From Shewanella pealeana ATCC 700345 (GTDB lineage: Bacteria; Pseudomonadota; Gammaproteobacteria; Enterobacterales; Shewanellaceae): DNA of 64,000 nt. Below, one piece after another: positions 50,683-57,180 of the stretch (positions are counted from its first letter, which is position 1; each line of letters opens with the position of its first letter). The stretch is taken from contig NC_009901.1 of NCBI RefSeq assembly GCF_000018285.1, positions 309,001 to 373,000 on the forward strand, given 5' to 3'. The notes beneath the pieces are model-generated. The model worked only from the letters and a program-made list of their open reading frames with translations, ran no database searches and was not told where the DNA came from. Both the position numbers and the translations under genes were made by a program.

Positions 50683-51426
50683 TTACTTTTTGAAGATAGC
50701 TTCATTAGTGCCGTATGGACCTAAGTCTAGGTCGCGTTTACGGATCTCATCAACGCGATCGAATGCTTCTTCAGCTACGCGTAGATTCTTAACATCTTTG
50801 CGCCAGTAGTACTTAAAGCCGTTGAAATTAGCGTTGTTTGGATACCAGTACATGACACCTAGACCTTTGTCAGACATGATAGGCGTGTTGTGAATTGTGG
50901 CCCCTGGAATGTAGAAGTATTGGCCGGTACCTAGCTTCTTGAACTGGTTATCGGCAAGAGTTTGCCCTTCACCGTTTACCACGTAGTAACACTCAGGCTG
51001 ACCATGGAAGTGAGGCGCGTGATCTGATTTACCGCCGTCGGTGATACCGATAACAACTGGGCTGTCTGATAGTTCTTTCCAGATATAACCAACTGGCGAC
51101 TTTGACTTATCACAGTCCTGAATTTCTAGTACGTTGCCGTCGTCATCTAGTGACTTACAAAATTGCTGATCTTTAGCAATGCTGTCGTTAGCTTGAATAG
51201 TCGTGAAATCAATTTCACCCGCTTCCCAAGCTGCGATGTATGCTTCAACTTCAGGGTTGCTACACTGCTCAGGCATGGTGTCTTGTGGTGAGTAAGGCGT
51301 GCTGTCATATGGCACTGGCGTCATCTGCTGGTATGGCAGTTGAGCGTGATCGCACTGAGGACCTTGGGCAAATACGGCAGTAGACGTTAGTGCGGCTATG
51401 CCGAACATCATTTTTAATTTCATCAT
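50683..51426 (-). CDS. periplasmic cupin-domain protein, candidate lyase
   Basis: A 247-residue exported protein (signal cut after AVFA). The metal site of the cupin is complete: H139-x-H141-x3-E145-x-Y147 in HFHGQPECYY and H179 in IPGATIHN. The spacing (0, 2, 6, 8, 40) equals that of DMSP lyases such as DddK, where the Tyr is catalytic; however, HxHx3ExY is common in cupins. Five Cys lie in the mature chain. AGGA before the third codon (ATG 51426) fixes the start. Its promoter copies that of the flavoprotein gene (56044), so both act in one pathway. I infer a lyase that makes an unsaturated acid; other cupin reactions remain possible. Confidence 0.75.
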   Translation of the reverse strand: MMKLKMMFGIAALTSTAVFAQGPQCDHAQLPYQQMTPVPYDSTPYSPQDTMPEQCSNPEVEAYIAAWEAGEIDFTTIQANDSIAKDQQFCKSLDDDGNVLEIQDCDKSKSPVGYIWKELSDSPVVIGITDGGKSDHAPHFHGQPECYYVVNGEGQTLADNQFKKLGTGQYFYIPGATIHNTPIMSDKGLGVMYWYPNNANFNGFKYYWRKDVKNLRVAEEAFDRVDEIRKRDLDLGPYGTNEAIFKK

Positions 51427-51496
51427 TCTCATCCTGTTTTTTTAGCTGATGCAGCCAAAGCTGCGATATTGTGCTCGTTTTAACGGGCTTGAACTA

Positions 51497-51585
51497 ACAA
51501 TAAAGTGATAATTGCTGCGTAAAGTTGAAATGGATCACGCAGCATTTTAAGCAGCAAACTTATTCGTGAGCTCGGTCGCGAATAA
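51497..51585 (-). promoter_or_regulatory. promoter module of the cupin gene: palindrome, CRP-like site, -10
   Basis: On the minus strand the order is TTATTCG-N12-CGAATAA (51560-51585), then CGTGATCCATTTCAAC (CRP-like, 51524-51539), then TTTATTGTTA with a -10 like TATTGT (51497-51502). The CRP-like centre would lie near -41.5. Every element recurs with the same spacing upstream of the flavoprotein gene. Confidence 0.7.
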
Positions 51586-51603
51586 TCTTTTCATTGCGAC
51601 TTT

Positions 51604-52692
51604 TTAGATATGGAATTGCAGACTTAACTGGGCGTAATTAGAGGCGCCTTGCGGTGCAGATATATCCTCATAGGGGCTTATTCCGTCATCAATTTGATAG
51701 CGGCCGACCTCAAAACCTAGCGCTAAAGCAGGCGTCAGGTTAGTGAACAGGTTCACTCCTGCATGGAAGCGGTTTGTCTGCTCCTCTTCGGTGATGGTTT
51801 GACCGTAGAAAAGACTTGAACGAGTACGCTCGGTCCAGAAATGACGATAAGCAAACATGGCTGAAGTGGTGGTTTCTATCTCGCCATTAATCATATCTCT
51901 AGCCGCATCGGTACCCACATAACGGCCTAGGTTGCCGTAGTGAAGTTGCAAGCGAACATCATTTTTGCCGTAGGTTTTAAGCTTGGCAGCGACAGATACC
52001 CCCGCGCCAAGTTGAGCCGTGTCCTGAGGGTCTAAATAGCGAAGCAGACTCGATACCGACACGTTACCCCAGTCACTCTGTCGATCGAATCTAATCACAG
52101 CATCTGGTACATAGTCATTACTAGTGTCTACCCACTTTTTATCGGCAGTCGTGCTGCCAGTCTGTGTGCTACCCGCTTGAGTGCCATAGGTATAGGGGTT
52201 TTCTAGTGCAAATTGCCAGTTATTAGTGCTGTAGCGCACTATAGCTTGGCGCACCATAGCCTGACCAACCAGTGGACCGCCCAGATCTGCAGTTTCCGCA
52301 AAAGCACTGGTATTGACCATGGTTGACCAGGTTTGCCCTGCGGTGACATCGTTATACTGGATATAGGCATGCCTTAAGCGCGGGCTGTAGGAGTTAGAAA
52401 ACGCGGCATTCCCCTGAGCGGAACCCGAAAAGTCTATCTCAGCAAAGCCTTTCACTTCGCCGTGAGTCACGCCGACATTGAAGCGGCTTTCGGCAGCGCT
52501 AAATTGGCTGCGTTTAGCCGAGTCGGTGATGTGCCCTCCGCCAGTCCAGCTATCCTGAAAGGCGATATTGCCATCCACATAGCGAGCGTTGGCTTTAATA
52601 AAACCGCCAAAATGATACTCGCTTGCCATAGATGGCAGCGAATAAGCGCCCATTAAACAAATACAAATAGAGATTCTAGTAATCGATTTCAT
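51604..52692 (-). CDS. DcaP-like trimeric porin
   Basis: A 362-residue outer-membrane protein with a signal peptide cut at LPSMASEY. The first strand FGGFIKANARYVDGN, the block RFNVGVTHGEVKGFAEIDF and AGQTWSTMVNTSAF match DcaP-type porins, which pass small dicarboxylates and other organic acids. It ends LSLQFHI. The other porin gene lies upstream, and a hairpin with seven T lies about 20 bases before this ATG. It probably lets the pathway substrate into the periplasm. Confidence 0.82.
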   Translation of the reverse strand: MKSITRISICICLMGAYSLPSMASEYHFGGFIKANARYVDGNIAFQDSWTGGGHITDSAKRSQFSAAESRFNVGVTHGEVKGFAEIDFSGSAQGNAAFSNSYSPRLRHAYIQYNDVTAGQTWSTMVNTSAFAETADLGGPLVGQAMVRQAIVRYSTNNWQFALENPYTYGTQAGSTQTGSTTADKKWVDTSNDYVPDAVIRFDRQSDWGNVSVSSLLRYLDPQDTAQLGAGVSVAAKLKTYGKNDVRLQLHYGNLGRYVGTDAARDMINGEIETTTSAMFAYRHFWTERTRSSLFYGQTITEEEQTNRFHAGVNLFTNLTPALALGFEVGRYQIDDGISPYEDISAPQGASNYAQLSLQFHI

Positions 52693-52714
52693 GGTTCTTT
52701 CTTGTAGGGGGGAA

Positions 52715-52750
52715 TAAAAAAAGCCCTAGTACTTTTGGTATCTTAAGGGC
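52715..52750 (-). terminator. terminator or attenuator hairpin in the DcaP-like gene leader
   Basis: On the minus strand GCCCT (52746-52750) pairs with AGGGC (52723-52727), followed by TTTTTTTATT. The loop has the palindrome AGTACT. The T-run ends about 22 bases before the DcaP-like ATG. It therefore ends the upstream porin transcript, with read-through needed to reach this gene. Confidence 0.6.
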
Positions 52751-52827
52751 GTGATCCATTTAGGTGACAGCAAGCAGGGATGCTGTACCCAGTCCATAGT
52801 TGGGAGAATCTAAAAATTACAGGGGGT

Positions 52828-52862
52828 GATAGAAGCGAAGTGAGAGCGGCTTCGCTTCTATC
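52828..52862. promoter_or_regulatory. 13-bp perfect hairpin between the two porin genes
   Basis: GATAGAAGCGAAG and its exact complement flank a nine-base loop. There is no T-run on either side, so it is not an intrinsic terminator. It lies about 100 bases past the porin stop and 136 bases before the DcaP-like ATG. It may stabilise the upstream mRNA 3' end. Confidence 0.55.
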
Positions 52863-52965
52863 GGTAACACCAGTTAACAACATTAGACTTACCAATGACC
52901 TCTGCGCGTTCCTGTGCTCGGATCATTGATAATTGCTAACATAACAACTGAAAACTCAGCCGTTA

Positions 52966-54105
52966 TTAGAAGTAGTAACCAAAGTTAATATTAACGCGCT
53001 TATCCCAGCTATCGCCCATTTCAGGAAGACCCACGTGGTCATTGTTAGCGGTAGAGAAGGTCATGTTCTTACCCATAACGAAATCGACCATGGTGTACGT
53101 TGGGCCAGCTGAAATCGCACAACCCGTCACGTTTTGCATGCTGTTGTCATAGCTATCGTCATCAACATCAGGCGTCATCAGGCCGAAGTCGTTATAGCAC
53201 TTCACACTGCCCCAGTCGGTTGCGAATGTCTTGGCGATGTTCGCGCTATAAGATTGACCCTTAGAAGCAATTTCGTACTGCCAGCTGACAACCGATACGG
53301 CAATTTTGTTGGCATCAACAGCGTCAGCGGCATCATATTCGTACTGCATCGCCTGAAGCTGCAGATTCCAGCCTTTGTAGCTGCTATCTAAGTGAAGTGC
53401 GACGGCGTAACGATCGCCGTTGTTACCGGTATCGCTGTTATAGATCTGACCATATTGTACCGAACCACCAAGCGTTGTTTGACCACCTTCATGCTCGGCG
53501 GTGTAAGTTTGGCGCAGGTTGAACTGATTAGTCTCTTCGTTGAAGTACTCGATACCGCTTGCAGCGATAGTACCGCTGTATAGGTCAGTCGAATAACGCT
53601 TGTTCTCAGATGGACCATACTCGGCGCTCTTATAAAAGGCTAAGTCAGTGTGCCAGCCGTTTTTCTCGTAAACGGCCTTGATACCTGTGTCATGATCATC
53701 TTCAAAACCTAAGTAATAAGGAATGCCAAACCAGTAACTGTTTGAGATGAAGTCGCGATTACCAAATGGTACCTTGTTGATACCAAGCTGTAGCTGCCAA
53801 TCTGGATTGACGTCGTAGTACGCGAAACCGTATTTGATGTAGTCAGTGCCAGAAGTGAAACGGTATTCAGCAGATAGGCCCCAGTCACCGTGCTTACCAT
53901 CAAACTTGATTGCTGCCATATCAAAGTAAAAGTCACCGCCTTTATCTTTGTTGACTTCATCATAGTCGCGGTAGGCGTAGTTAACACGTACGGCGCCGCC
54001 GAGTTTGATACCATCTTCAGTCTGTTCCGTTGCATAAGCAGCAGAACTCGAAAGTGCGATAGCTGTAGCCACCATTGACAACATAAACTTAGTGGTTTTT
54101 TTCAT
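52966..54105 (-). CDS. outer-membrane porin (OprP/OprO-like type)
   Basis: A 379-residue porin. The signal peptide (MKKTTKFMLSMVATAIALSS) is cut at AAYATEQ. The mature chain begins with GIKLGGAVRVNYAYRDYD and has QLGINKVPFGNRDF and ADLAFYKS-like strands; it ends VNINFGYYF. Of three ATG codons in a row, the third (54103-54105) has the best spacing from GGGA. It follows the tetrahaem cytochrome gene by about 40 bases and so belongs to the flavoprotein operon. Which solutes pass is not readable. Confidence 0.82.
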   Translation of the reverse strand: MKKTTKFMLSMVATAIALSSSAAYATEQTEDGIKLGGAVRVNYAYRDYDEVNKDKGGDFYFDMAAIKFDGKHGDWGLSAEYRFTSGTDYIKYGFAYYDVNPDWQLQLGINKVPFGNRDFISNSYWFGIPYYLGFEDDHDTGIKAVYEKNGWHTDLAFYKSAEYGPSENKRYSTDLYSGTIAASGIEYFNEETNQFNLRQTYTAEHEGGQTTLGGSVQYGQIYNSDTGNNGDRYAVALHLDSSYKGWNLQLQAMQYEYDAADAVDANKIAVSVVSWQYEIASKGQSYSANIAKTFATDWGSVKCYNDFGLMTPDVDDDSYDNSMQNVTGCAISAGPTYTMVDFVMGKNMTFSTANNDHVGLPEMGDSWDKRVNINFGYYF

Positions 54106-54152
54106 CATCATTCCCTATTACTATTTTTAGATTTATAAATTAATCAGTCACG

Positions 54153-54521
54153 TTACATCTCTTCAAACCAAGTGCGGTGGCACTCTGTACAAACTGGTGC
54201 TTTCTTCTCGTGCTCAGCGTGACATGCTAGGCAGCTTGCGCCTTGGTTGTAGTGCAGCGACTTATGTGGATGTGCTTCTGGGATCGCCAGCTTGCTTTCA
54301 TCGACAGGAATACTGTTGATGTCGCCATGACACTCAACGCATGCTGCGTCAGTTGTGTTCTTCTTACCTGAACCTTGGTGACAAGTTTGGCAGCCATCTT
54401 GGTAGATAAACTCGTGGTTTACGCGACCTTCAGTCTTACCTTTCATCTTGACTAGCTCGCCCGCCATGACGTTGCTAGACAGAGCGAGGCCGAGTAGTGC
54501 ACTTAGTAATAACTTGTTCAT
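54153..54521 (-). CDS. periplasmic tetrahaem c-type cytochrome
   Basis: A 122-residue protein with a Sec signal peptide (cut after NVMA). Four CxxCH haem sites are present: CQTCH, CVECH, CLACH and CTECH, and further His residues can act as axial ligands. It resembles the haem domain of Shewanella flavocytochrome c (FccA) as a separate subunit. Its start overlaps the flavoprotein stop by one base (TAATG). It probably takes electrons from the CymA/quinol side and passes them to the flavoprotein. Confidence 0.92.
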   Translation of the reverse strand: MNKLLLSALLGLALSSNVMAGELVKMKGKTEGRVNHEFIYQDGCQTCHQGSGKKNTTDAACVECHGDINSIPVDESKLAIPEAHPHKSLHYNQGASCLACHAEHEKKAPVCTECHRTWFEEM

Positions 54522-56044
54522 TAGACGGCTCCTTCAAGGTCGGCTTTGATGGTTTCAGATACGATGATCCCCATGACGAGGCACTCTAGGCATGAGGTCG
54601 AACTCAAGCGTGCTTCACCGTGAATACCACCCGTGACTTCGCCAATGGCGTATAGGTTTTTGATCGGTGCCATAGAGCGACCATCAATTACGCGCGCGCC
54701 TAAATCAGTCTTTAGGCCGCCCATGCAGTAATGCACTTTTGGCCAAATACGTGATACAACAAATGGGCCCGTTAGCTCTTCTGCTGTATCCATCTTGCGG
54801 TTGAATAGTGGGTCTTTACGCTCGCCAACATGTTTGTTGTACTCTTTGATGCTGCGCTTGAGTTCTGCGGCAGGAATATCGAACTTAGCGGCGATCTCAT
54901 CGAGTGAGTCAACTTTCCAAGCCATCTCGTCGCGTAGTGCACGCACAACACGGTCGTCTTTGGCGTAGTTGTTATAGTTGAAGAACACCACTGGATAAGC
55001 CGGGCTACCATCGGCGTTACGGTTTTTCATAATCGCTTCAGAGCAGGTCTTGCGGTCTGCACGCTCATCCATAAAACGCTTACCGTTTAGCACGCTAATC
55101 GCCACACCTTGGTGCCAGCCGATAGATAGCAATGCGTTTGACCAACCGAATCCACCTTCATCTGGAGAACCCCAGTGACCAGTCTGGATAAGGTTCATGT
55201 GCACAGGGAGTGCGCCGTAAGCCATAGCGGTAAGTGTAACTTCACCGGTTGCACCCATTGCGTTGGTGCAATCAAGAGTTGGGTCTAGAGATGGGTCAAC
55301 CGCTTCACGCAGCGCCATGTTACGAGCGAAACCGCCGTTAGCCAGTACTACGGCTTTATTTGCTTTAATAAAAATCGTGGTGCCAGTTTTTAGATCTGGG
55401 AAGCGGTAGTTCTTACGAACCTTAACGCCGATGATCTGCTGACCGTCCATGATGAAGTCTTCGATATAGTGCTGTAGACGGTGATCTACACCTTCTTTCA
55501 CACCCGCTTCATATAGTTTGGTGGTGATGTCGCCGCCAGTACCATGTTGGGTACGGATAGCACGTGCCTTGTTGTGACCACCCACTTGGATGTTGAAGCC
55601 ATCACGGAATTTAACGCCGGTATCGATACAAAGGTCGTAAGCATCCAAAGAGCGATTAGCGATTTGACGTAGCGCTGGTTCATTTTGCATGCCACGGCCA
55701 GAGATGATCTGATCTTTGACTAACTCTTCTGGTGAGTCGTCATTCACGCCTTGAGCCAACTGGATAGGATTCTTAGGGATCGCTAACCAGCCACCGTTAA
55801 TTGCTGAGTTACCACCGATCACTTGCATCTTTTCTAAAACAAGTACCGAACCCAGGCCTTGGCGCTTAGCATTTACAGCTGCAGAAAGACCTGCAAAGCC
55901 TGAACCGACGACGATAACATCTGCGCTTTCGTCCCAGTTAATTTCGCCACAGCTTTTAGCTTGTACGGTACCGGGTAATGTTGCCGCTAAACTACCAATA
56001 GCAGCGCCAGCACTTAGCTTTAAAAAGTTTCTTCTACCTTGCAT
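54521..56044 (-). CDS. Tat-exported FAD enoate reductase (fumarate reductase/UrdA/acrylate reductase family)
   Basis: A 507-residue flavoprotein. A Tat signal (GRRNFLKLSAG, residues 3-13) sends the folded FAD protein to the periplasm. The dinucleotide motif is VVGSGFAG (45-52). By alignment to FccA, the proton donor Arg402 is R331, His504 is H438 (VHYCMGG), Arg544 is R479 (HGEARL) and His365 is H290. The Thr377-Glu378 pair is missing, and GGNA after Arg544 is SSTS. So the reductase core is kept but one carboxylate pocket is changed, which argues against fumarate and for a monocarboxylate such as an acrylate. No haem domain is fused; the next gene supplies it. Confidence 0.88.
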   Translation of the reverse strand: MQGRRNFLKLSAGAAIGSLAATLPGTVQAKSCGEINWDESADVIVVGSGFAGLSAAVNAKRQGLGSVLVLEKMQVIGGNSAINGGWLAIPKNPIQLAQGVNDDSPEELVKDQIISGRGMQNEPALRQIANRSLDAYDLCIDTGVKFRDGFNIQVGGHNKARAIRTQHGTGGDITTKLYEAGVKEGVDHRLQHYIEDFIMDGQQIIGVKVRKNYRFPDLKTGTTIFIKANKAVVLANGGFARNMALREAVDPSLDPTLDCTNAMGATGEVTLTAMAYGALPVHMNLIQTGHWGSPDEGGFGWSNALLSIGWHQGVAISVLNGKRFMDERADRKTCSEAIMKNRNADGSPAYPVVFFNYNNYAKDDRVVRALRDEMAWKVDSLDEIAAKFDIPAAELKRSIKEYNKHVGERKDPLFNRKMDTAEELTGPFVVSRIWPKVHYCMGGLKTDLGARVIDGRSMAPIKNLYAIGEVTGGIHGEARLSSTSCLECLVMGIIVSETIKADLEGAV

Positions 56045-56388
56045 TTTCTTGTAATCCTCAATCAGGGAATGAGGTAACGATAAACGTAAGTTCAGTTGCT
56101 AAAGGTGAACTAAGTCACGCCATTTTTTCAGTGACAAATTTATTCGTGAGTCAGCTCTCGAATAAATTTTTTCTTAAAAAAAAGCTCAGAATCAGGAGTG
56201 GATAAATGTGAAAGGAATCAATCTGGAGTTAAAAATTATTACGGCAATGTTTATATGACGTAATTCACAAAGCCTACCAATAAAGAGGTGTTAGCGTGAA
56301 GTGAATCCCGAATAGAGAAGAGATATCTATAATCCGTAATTGTTACCAGCGCATAATTAGCTGAATTCGATATACAGGTTTTTTATAG
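56045..56388. promoter_or_regulatory. divergent regulatory region of the flavoprotein operon and the TetR gene
   Basis: On the minus strand: perfect palindrome AAATTTATTCG-N12-CGAATAAATTT (56136-56169), CRP-like CGTGACTTAGTTCACC (56104-56119, core GTGA-N6-TCAC) and -10 TATCGT (56077-56082) after TTTATCGTTA. On the plus strand a TATAAT (56328-56333) lies 55 bases before the tetR ATG, without a clear -35. The palindrome is the best candidate for the TetR operator, with its centre about 82 bases upstream of the predicted flavoprotein start of transcription. Confidence 0.7.
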
Positions 56389-57180
56389 ATGAAATGTCCC
56401 ACTGAAGCATTGCCTATGATGCGCTGCAATCAGATACTAGATGCGGCTGAGCAGCTGATTGAGTCGCAAGGTATTGTCTCGTTTAAGTTCTCGCAACTCG
56501 CGAAAGAAGTGGGCTGTTCCACCGGTACCTTATACAAGTTTTTTGAGCGCAAAGAAGACGTGTTAGTCTGCTTGTTTTTGCGTAGTGCGACCTCAAATCA
56601 CTTGCCGATATTTATTAACAAATATCCCGATTTAACCGCTCAAGAGAAAGTGCTGCTACCGATTTTGTTTACATTTGAGACCATCAAACGCAGTAAGAGT
56701 TTTTTTACTCTGCGTTCGGTTTCGGTCAATACCATGGTGTGGCAACTGGCCAGCGACGAGAAAGTGGATCGCTTCAAAAAGCGTATCAATGCGTTTTGGG
56801 GCTGGTTTACCGACTCGCTTAATGAAGCCGTAGCTAAGGGCGAGCTTGATGCGACGCCATTGCAAGTTAAAGAGTTAGTGCAGGGGATCACCTTCTTCTT
56901 AACGGGCTCGCTAACCCAATTTGAAAGCCAGTTAATCGCCCCTGAGTACTTATCTAATCGTCGTGAGACCTGCTACCGACATTTAGCCCGTTTAATGGGG
57001 CAATATAAGTGGGCTAAGCCACTTACCCCTGAACTGTTTGACTCGCTTGAGAACAGAAGCTCGAGCTTCTTCGATAAACACTATCGTGATCATATGAGCT
57101 GCAGCGCCTGTAGCGCCTTGTCCTGCTCCCCCGCTAATAGCGAAGCGCCTTGCCTACACAAAAAAGTCAGCGCTGCTTAA
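56389..57180 (+). CDS. TetR/AcrR family regulator with Cys-rich tail
   Basis: A 263-residue regulator. The N-terminal helix-turn-helix is clear (FKFSQLAKEVGCSTGTLYKFFERKED split across residues 29-55). The ligand domain follows to about residue 220. The last 25 residues are unusual: MSCSACSALSCSPANSEAPC has four Cys, which TetR proteins normally lack, and could sense redox state or metal. ATG 56389 and an internal ATG at about 56416 are both possible. It faces the flavoprotein operon, whose promoter and that of the cupin gene share a palindrome, so it is the likely regulator of both. Confidence 0.85.
   Translation: MKCPTEALPMMRCNQILDAAEQLIESQGIVSFKFSQLAKEVGCSTGTLYKFFERKEDVLVCLFLRSATSNHLPIFINKYPDLTAQEKVLLPILFTFETIKRSKSFFTLRSVSVNTMVWQLASDEKVDRFKKRINAFWGWFTDSLNEAVAKGELDATPLQVKELVQGITFFLTGSLTQFESQLIAPEYLSNRRETCYRHLARLMGQYKWAKPLTPELFDSLENRSSSFFDKHYRDHMSCSACSALSCSPANSEAPCLHKKVSAA

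Follow-up and report, generated by a model that had tools for sequence, protein, structure and literature searches.

A candidate periplasmic module of Shewanella pealeana predicted to couple a DddK-like cupin lyase to a 2-enoate reductase

The stretch of DNA analysed here, called the window, is 64,000 nucleotides of the genome of Shewanella pealeana ATCC 700345 (NC_009901.1, positions 309,001-373,000, forward strand), and at window positions 50683-57180 it carries a cluster of genes for a cupin, two porin-like proteins, a tetrahaem cytochrome c, a flavoprotein reductase and a TetR-family regulator. The sequence suggests, with a probability that we put at about 0.7, that this is a TetR-controlled periplasmic module which makes its own electron acceptor, the cupin acting as a lyase coupled to a 2-enoate reductase. 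We regard the predicted lyase-reductase coupling as well supported, because the cupin active site is identical to that of DddK, a lyase of dimethylsulfoniopropionate (DMSP), the fumarate pocket of the reductase is lost, the linkage of the two genes is conserved and a palindrome is shared between them, and also because the same layout of lyase beside reductase is found in this genome for DddY with ArdA and for PF00221 ammonia lyases.

In the proposed scheme the outer-membrane porins would admit a small beta-substituted carboxylic acid, whose carboxylate would be bound by the cupin metal at H141/H143/E147/H181, and Y149 would serve as the base which takes the alpha-proton, the beta leaving group departing to give a 2-enoate by the chemistry of DddK. 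The flavoprotein, exported by the twin-arginine translocation (Tat) pathway, would then reduce the C=C bond of the enoate with the tetrahaem cytochrome as its electron donor. Electrons to the cytochrome would come ultimately from quinol via CymA. The initial annotation had outlined a similar route from lyase to enoate to reductase; we infer the lyase activity, the order of the steps, the pairing of regulator with palindrome and the role of the porins.

A DddK-like active site in the cupin

Searches of the PDB placed DddK first both for the cupin family profile and for the predicted fold, with phosphoglucose isomerase and others also among the matches. Residues W118, H141, H143, E147, Y149, H181, W196 and Y208 of the window cupin correspond to DddK W26, H56, H58, E62, Y64, H96, W110 and Y122 and include the metal site HxHxxxE...H (H141/H143/E147/H181, opposite DddK H56/H58/E62/H96), confirming the DMSP-lyase-like pattern of metal ligands and tyrosine (H141, H143, E147, Y149 and H181) that the initial annotation had claimed. 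All eight residues (four metal ligands, two tyrosines and two tryptophans) were invariant in 27 of 27 aligned cupins, an alignment which takes in the window cupin and a few near-copies. A control set of 29 open reading frames (ORFs) holding a Cupin_2 match, informative on Tyr149 alone, gave no tyrosine at that position in any of the 21 proteins having a residue there.

We propose that the cupin is a predicted periplasmic beta-elimination lyase of DddK type. It is filed here as DddK-like and kept out of the class of DMSP lyases, since the release of dimethyl sulfide (DMS) and acrylate from DMSP that defines them is an assay criterion. Identity with DddY was rejected, as the initial annotation had anticipated from size: the cupin has 249 amino acids, compared to about 400 for DddY, and the DddY entries 5xkx and 5y4k are absent from its 12 PDB matches at E 10. 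Spread of the cupin by plasmids was also rejected, the search having given no match among them.

A reductase clade with its own substrate loop

The reductase keeps R331, H438 and R479, which align with the catalytic and carboxylate-binding residues of Fcc3 and UrdA (Fcc3 residue numbers and roles are as given in PMC7921117). In an alignment with the Fcc3-type protein of the same genome, S302-N303 take the place of the fumarate-specific Thr-Glu pair and G289 that of the substrate His, so the earlier claim that the catalytic Arg and His are retained while Thr-Glu is lost proved correct. The S. woodyi ArdA (P0125, which bears the name 'Acrylate reductase flavoprotein subunit') is without the same fumarate-pocket residues in that alignment, and two of them are also missing from Mrd (PMC4427408). 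The protein is of the ArdAB/Mrd-Mcc type, being a TIGR01813 flavoprotein with a separate tetrahaem cytochrome in which Arg/His/Arg are kept and the fumarate C1-carboxylate pocket is lost.

A quick maximum-likelihood tree (69 rows, at most 14 rows per class, with long-branch warnings and an outgroup that did not form one side of a branch) set the window reductase clade apart by a single branch (100) and joined it with ArdA and with F_B, the reductase of a paralogous module described below, the three together at 99; reductases linked to ammonia lyases fell outside this group. The substrate loop Q.GHW.SPDEGGFGW, with its His-Trp and Trp, was found in 67 of 67 distinct window-clade sequences (66 of these loops read Q.GHWGSPDEGGFGW, and in the remaining one Ala replaces the Gly after Trp), whereas ArdA-type loops have Pro-Trp and Tyr in 33 of 33 cases, 32 of them reading Q.GPWASPDEGGFGYV. 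A helix in the substrate-loop region is described as the greatest difference between Fcc3 and UrdA (PMC7921117, in part). The reductase was therefore not taken to be ArdA proper, as it forms its own clade with a different loop. Its pocket and loop signature point to a monocarboxylic 2-enoate as the probable substrate, perhaps one other than acrylate. F_B is the better candidate for an acrylate reductase because it is closer to ArdA than the window reductase is (54% compared to 41% identity) and its loop carries Pro and Tyr as in ArdA (13/13).

A protein named as from Desulfuromonas versatilis (P0086), far outside the Gammaproteobacteria, is 72% identical to the reductase, and that name is absent among the cupin matches listed.

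Linkage of cupin and reductase across genomes

By tblastn on the fetched stretches, a window-type reductase and cytochrome were found at 39 of the 43 loci with a window-type cupin (counting L074, where a 47-residue piece of the reductase lies at the stretch end, and L055, where the reductase is in two pieces). In the reverse direction, a sample of 60 Shewanella genomes gave 22 full-length window-clade reductases, of which 17 have the cupin beside them (13/18 plus G000, G243, G338 and G382, with the fragmentary G394, which has a cupin beside it, and G398, where none was seen, excluded). Five window-clade reductases for which cupB was labelled the nearest lyase also have cupA. The gene order varies, with no porin gene found in S. 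hanedai (L037) and the second porin-like gene following the cupin in five Ferrimonas loci, and the linkage is therefore more than a frozen block.

The paralogous module, which often directly adjoins, consists of a cupin (about 33% identical), F_B, a cytochrome and a DUF3299 protein, and for 10 of 13 F_B genes the cupin of this module lies no more than 6 kb away. In 10/13 sampled cases this second cupin module comes with the DUF3299 protein (PF11736), whose start is signal-peptide-like (e.g. L017:9150-9656 and L031:9074-9553). Two genomes (L138 and L141) keep the window-type reductase, the cytochrome and DcaP with neither cupin seen, and there F_B adjoins a DcaP-like porin, giving a lyase-free version. 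At L146 (G394) the gene for the window-clade reductase is broken into two frames, with a cupin and cytochrome adjoining.

Where the cupin occurs without a reductase, the neighbours gave no clear clue to a substrate. In Falsirhodobacter sp. alg1 (L072:10001-12521) an alginate lyase gene (PF08787) comes after the cupin, and the stretch shows no reductase. A distant cupinB-like gene of S. hanedai (L082:8560-15361) lies with TetR-like and DUF3299 genes, with no reductase seen, in a neighbourhood that also holds an arylmalonate-decarboxylase-family gene (PF17645) and genes that by eye are amidohydrolase-like; a distant cupin paralogue of S. hanedai scored 18.7 bits against the Pfam DMSP_lyase model PF16867, below the cut-off of 27.

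A palindrome shared by the reductase and cupin genes

The 26 bp palindrome TTATTCG-N12-CGAATAA occurs twice in the window as exact copies, where 0.23 occurrences would be expected even with up to 2 mismatches, and there is no further exact copy in the genome (one contig of 5,174,581 bases), which has three 1-mismatch places elsewhere compared to four for a reversed-pattern control. Among named relatives, allowing up to 2 mismatches, it lies upstream of the cupin in 26 of 40 loci (26/31 in Shewanella) and upstream of the reductase in 23 of 35, these counts resting on called ORFs (40 of the 43 cupins and 35 reductases), and it matched 7 of 4620 shuffled upstream regions (plain letter shuffles). 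It was not found upstream of the other genes scored (DcaP 0/27, second porin-like gene 0/52, cytochrome 0/32, F_B 0/17, cupinB 0/17 and IlvE 0/11). The shared palindrome is in our view the best sequence evidence that the lyase and reductase answer one signal. The initial annotation had placed the cupin, porin, cytochrome and reductase genes of the cluster under shared control; the palindrome supports that claim for the reductase and the cupin, each preceded by an exact copy, and because the copies are separate the cupin might be transcribed as its own unit within the same regulon and not just as the end of a single operon.

We considered and rejected the possibility that the palindrome is an intrinsic terminator following the DcaP gene, the copy at 51560 being terminator-like on the plus strand only while the genes lie on the minus strand. 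We prefer an operator to a terminator because an exact copy precedes the reductase and because S. hanedai has a copy between the cytochrome and the cupin, where no porin gene was found. The adjacent TetR protein would bind both copies, which are its predicted operators. Scans for promoter-like sites (3 compared to a mean of 8.6) and for CRP-like sites (23 compared to a mean of 26.3, with one 1-mismatch site at 56254-56269) gave none above chance.

Among 74 TetR relatives, 70 have a C-x2-C motif within their last 60 residues, and this C-terminal cysteine cluster might sense reactive enoates by cysteine modification. The palindrome also offers a handle on the substrate, as the inducer of the TetR regulon is expected to be the substrate or something close to it.

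Gene layout of the cluster

Six ORFs were verified at the coordinates in Table 1, with the TetR gene divergent from the other five; domain calls used Pfam and NCBIfam models, and Pfam misses were judged at E 0.1. By the ORF coordinates, reductase and cytochrome genes overlap by 1 base, with 41 bases between cytochrome and second porin-like gene, 273 between this and DcaP and 171 between DcaP and cupin. The tetrahaem cytochrome and the Tat-type enoate reductase were called as the initial annotation had them (the reductase N-terminus, MQGRRNFLK, is Tat-like by eye), and one of its two porins was borne out by a domain match, the other resting on its look and neighbourhood.

Table 1. Features of the cluster, in window coordinates
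Feature	Position	Strand	Basis and remarks
Cupin, 249 amino acids	50683..51432	-	Cupin_2, 31 bits (cut-off 27.2); Sec-type N-terminus by eye
Palindrome TTATTCG-N12-CGAATAA, proposed TetR operator	51560..51585		127 bp upstream of cupin start
DcaP-family outer-membrane porin	51604..52692	-	PF19577, 29.2 bits (cut-off 27)
Second porin-like protein (porin2)	52966..54111	-	No Pfam match; called a porin from look and neighbourhood only
Secreted tetrahaem cytochrome c	54153..54521	-	Cytochrom_c3_2, 44.7 bits; four CxxCH in translation
Putative FAD-dependent 2-enoate reductase, Tat-like	54521..56044	-	TIGR01813 flavocytochrome c, E 2.5e-159
Second exact palindrome copy	56140..56165		95 bp upstream of reductase start; in the reductase/TetR divergent intergenic region
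TetR-family regulator	56389..57180	+	TetR_N; C-terminal cysteine cluster

Other lyase and reductase pairs

The same genome has, at 4.79 Mb, one cluster with DddY, a cytochrome, ArdA and an AcuI-like dehydrogenase gene (labelled from position and Pfam), and its DddY matches the PDB entries 5xkx and 5y4k at 9.5e-62 and 1.6e-60. At three further loci of this genome (L095, L096 and L097) a flavoprotein reductase lies beside an ammonia lyase of the PF00221 family whose N-terminus resembles a signal peptide, and two of these loci also have a cytochrome c3-type protein; L097 is a UrdA-like pair, and its UrdA-like protein bears an FMN_bind domain. Across the fetched sample, DddY lies within 6 kb of 21 of 33 ArdA-type genes, and a PF00221 ammonia lyase is near the reductase in 12/16 of one group and 4/4 of another. 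It thus seems that a scheme recurs in which a reductase works on an enoate that a neighbouring lyase has produced locally, and the window module would be a variant of it. A link of DddY-type lyases to such reductases has already been suggested (PMC4427408, in part), and a figure legend of PMC3338564 places fccA-fccB within the dddY-acuI region of Shewanella sp. MR-4.

Alternative explanations and the likely substrate

The likeliest substrate belongs to the DMSP class, being a DMSP-like beta-substituted acid. The module could be a second, redundant system for respiration of DMSP or dimethylsulfoxonium propionate (DMSOP), in which the cupin releases acrylate with DMS or dimethyl sulfoxide (DMSO) and the reductase is an ArdA-like acrylate reductase. 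Shewanella respires DMSO, and from DMSOP both DMSO and acrylate could be acceptors. The identity of the cupin active site with that of DddK fits such a system, as do the grouping of the reductase with ArdA, the presence of relatives of the second porin-like gene within 6 kb of 16 of 33 ArdA-type genes and the several cupin-module genomes where the search found no ArdA-type gene (e.g. G243, G338, G382 and G395). Tested DMSP lyases also cleave DMSOP, and DddK does so better than DMSP, according to PMC10686828. We nevertheless think it unlikely that DMSP or DMSOP is the actual substrate, or that the module is a redundant system of this kind, as F_B, the other cupin-linked reductase, is the better acrylate candidate, and DMSP is kept as one option, not the default, because the DddY-ArdA cluster of this genome already covers DMSP to acrylate and the loop of the window reductase (67/67) is distinct from that of ArdA (33/33).

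A somewhat better chance, a little short of even, goes to a different onium or beta-substituted acid from which a 2-enoate other than acrylate would arise. With the same reserve, we tentatively suggest that the cupin represents a new periplasmic family of DddK-like lyases, which would supply the respiratory reductase with an enoate other than acrylate from an unrecognised DMSP-like compound (for example a further sulfonio, sulfoxonio or quaternary-ammonio acid substituted at the beta position). If so, DddY and the ammonia lyases would be joined by a third lyase type in a general strategy by which Shewanella generates its terminal acceptors in the periplasm through elimination; enoate respiration would gain a family of cupin lyases and a clade of reductases, and a compound respirable by Shewanella would be predicted for which we found no earlier test. 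It would also make a general rule testable, namely that periplasmic enoate reductases adjoin a lyase able to make their substrate, as they often do in the fetched sample.

It is less probable still that the cupin is an isomerase, dioxygenase, decarboxylase or binding protein and no lyase for the substrate of the reductase, which would then use environmental enoates. Its fold is common to many activities, and several results weigh against a lyase-reductase module, some of them (the quercetinase match and the loci with one gene of the pair) also towards this explanation. Quercetinase was the top match in a single-sequence PDB search (2.6e-5, with DddK at 0.0075 and 0.01), DddK coming first only with the family profile, and PF16867 gave no match to the window cupin at E 0.1. 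The positions of W118, W196 and Y208 were aligned in only 2, 0 and 2 of the 29 control cupins, and our confidence in the lyase-reductase reading was lowered slightly, from 0.72 to 0.70, because these controls test Tyr149 alone. Five of the 22 window-clade reductases have no adjoining cupin (L144 stops at a contig end, and the genome of L145 has a cupin on another contig), and of the four cupin loci lacking the reductase two are cut by contig ends while those of Falsirhodobacter and Granulosicoccaceae show none in the stretch seen. The palindrome was found upstream of 0 of 9 non-Shewanella cupins scored. Going by the title of a 2018 paper by Lei et al., lyase-like cupins of unknown function are said to exist. 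Set against this, Y149, Y208, W118 and W196 are not metal ligands and yet are kept in 27/27 cupins and common to DddK, and a tyrosine at the Y149 position is foreign to the other Cupin_2 proteins (0/21).

An ordinary periplasmic fumarate or urocanate reductase operon beside an unrelated cupin is very improbable and was rejected on active-site and domain grounds, as the shared family model TIGR01813 and the best PDB matches of the reductase (Fcc3-type fumarate reductases and UrdA) are outweighed by the finding of neither a fused haem domain nor an FMN_bind domain in a Pfam scan, by the replacement of the Fcc3 Thr-Glu pair and substrate His, by the tree, which joins the reductase with ArdA, and by the conservation of cupin linkage and palindrome across species.

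Comparison with known systems

The cluster is not described in the parts covered of the literature on acrylate, methacrylate and urocanate reductases, cupin DMSP lyases in Shewanella, DddY and DddK, nor in that on lyase-like cupins, cupins with flavocytochrome c, and DMSP with anaerobic respiration (a scope that includes PMC4427408, PMC3338564, PMC10686828, PMC12582016, PMC7921117 and PMC8520302). The DddY-ArdAB(-AcuI) system of Shewanella is like the predicted lyase-reductase module in clustering a periplasmic lyase of the cupin superfamily (DddY is called a cupin in a paper title) with a flavoprotein reductase and a separate cytochrome, often with related porins near. It differs in that the window lyase is a small DddK-like cupin of 249 amino acids, compared to the larger DddY, in that the window reductase is 41% identical to ArdA with another substrate loop, and in that the window has a TetR gene and palindrome, whereas ArdA has a gene beside it that is LysR-like by eye.

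DddK, the DMSP/DMSOP lyase of Pelagibacter, shares with the window cupin the four metal ligands, both tyrosines and both tryptophans, but it has about 130 amino acids, is without the N-terminal stretch of about 110 residues and is about 24% identical over the aligned part; unlike DddK, the window cupin begins with what resembles a signal peptide and belongs to a respiratory cluster. The Mrd-Mcc system of Geobacter sulfurreducens AM-1 combines a flavoprotein and a separate tetrahaem cytochrome in one operon, and Mrd has the same three catalytic residues with two other succinate-binding residues lost (PMC4427408). The two-subunit operon and catalytic trio are like those of the window, a likeness drawn from description and not from sequence, and unlike the window the Mrd-Mcc operon is described, in the part of that paper covered, without a lyase. 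UrdA with its neighbouring ammonia lyase also has a lyase adjoining an enoate reductase, as in the window, but the UrdA-like protein has an FMN_bind domain and its lyase belongs to the PF00221 family.

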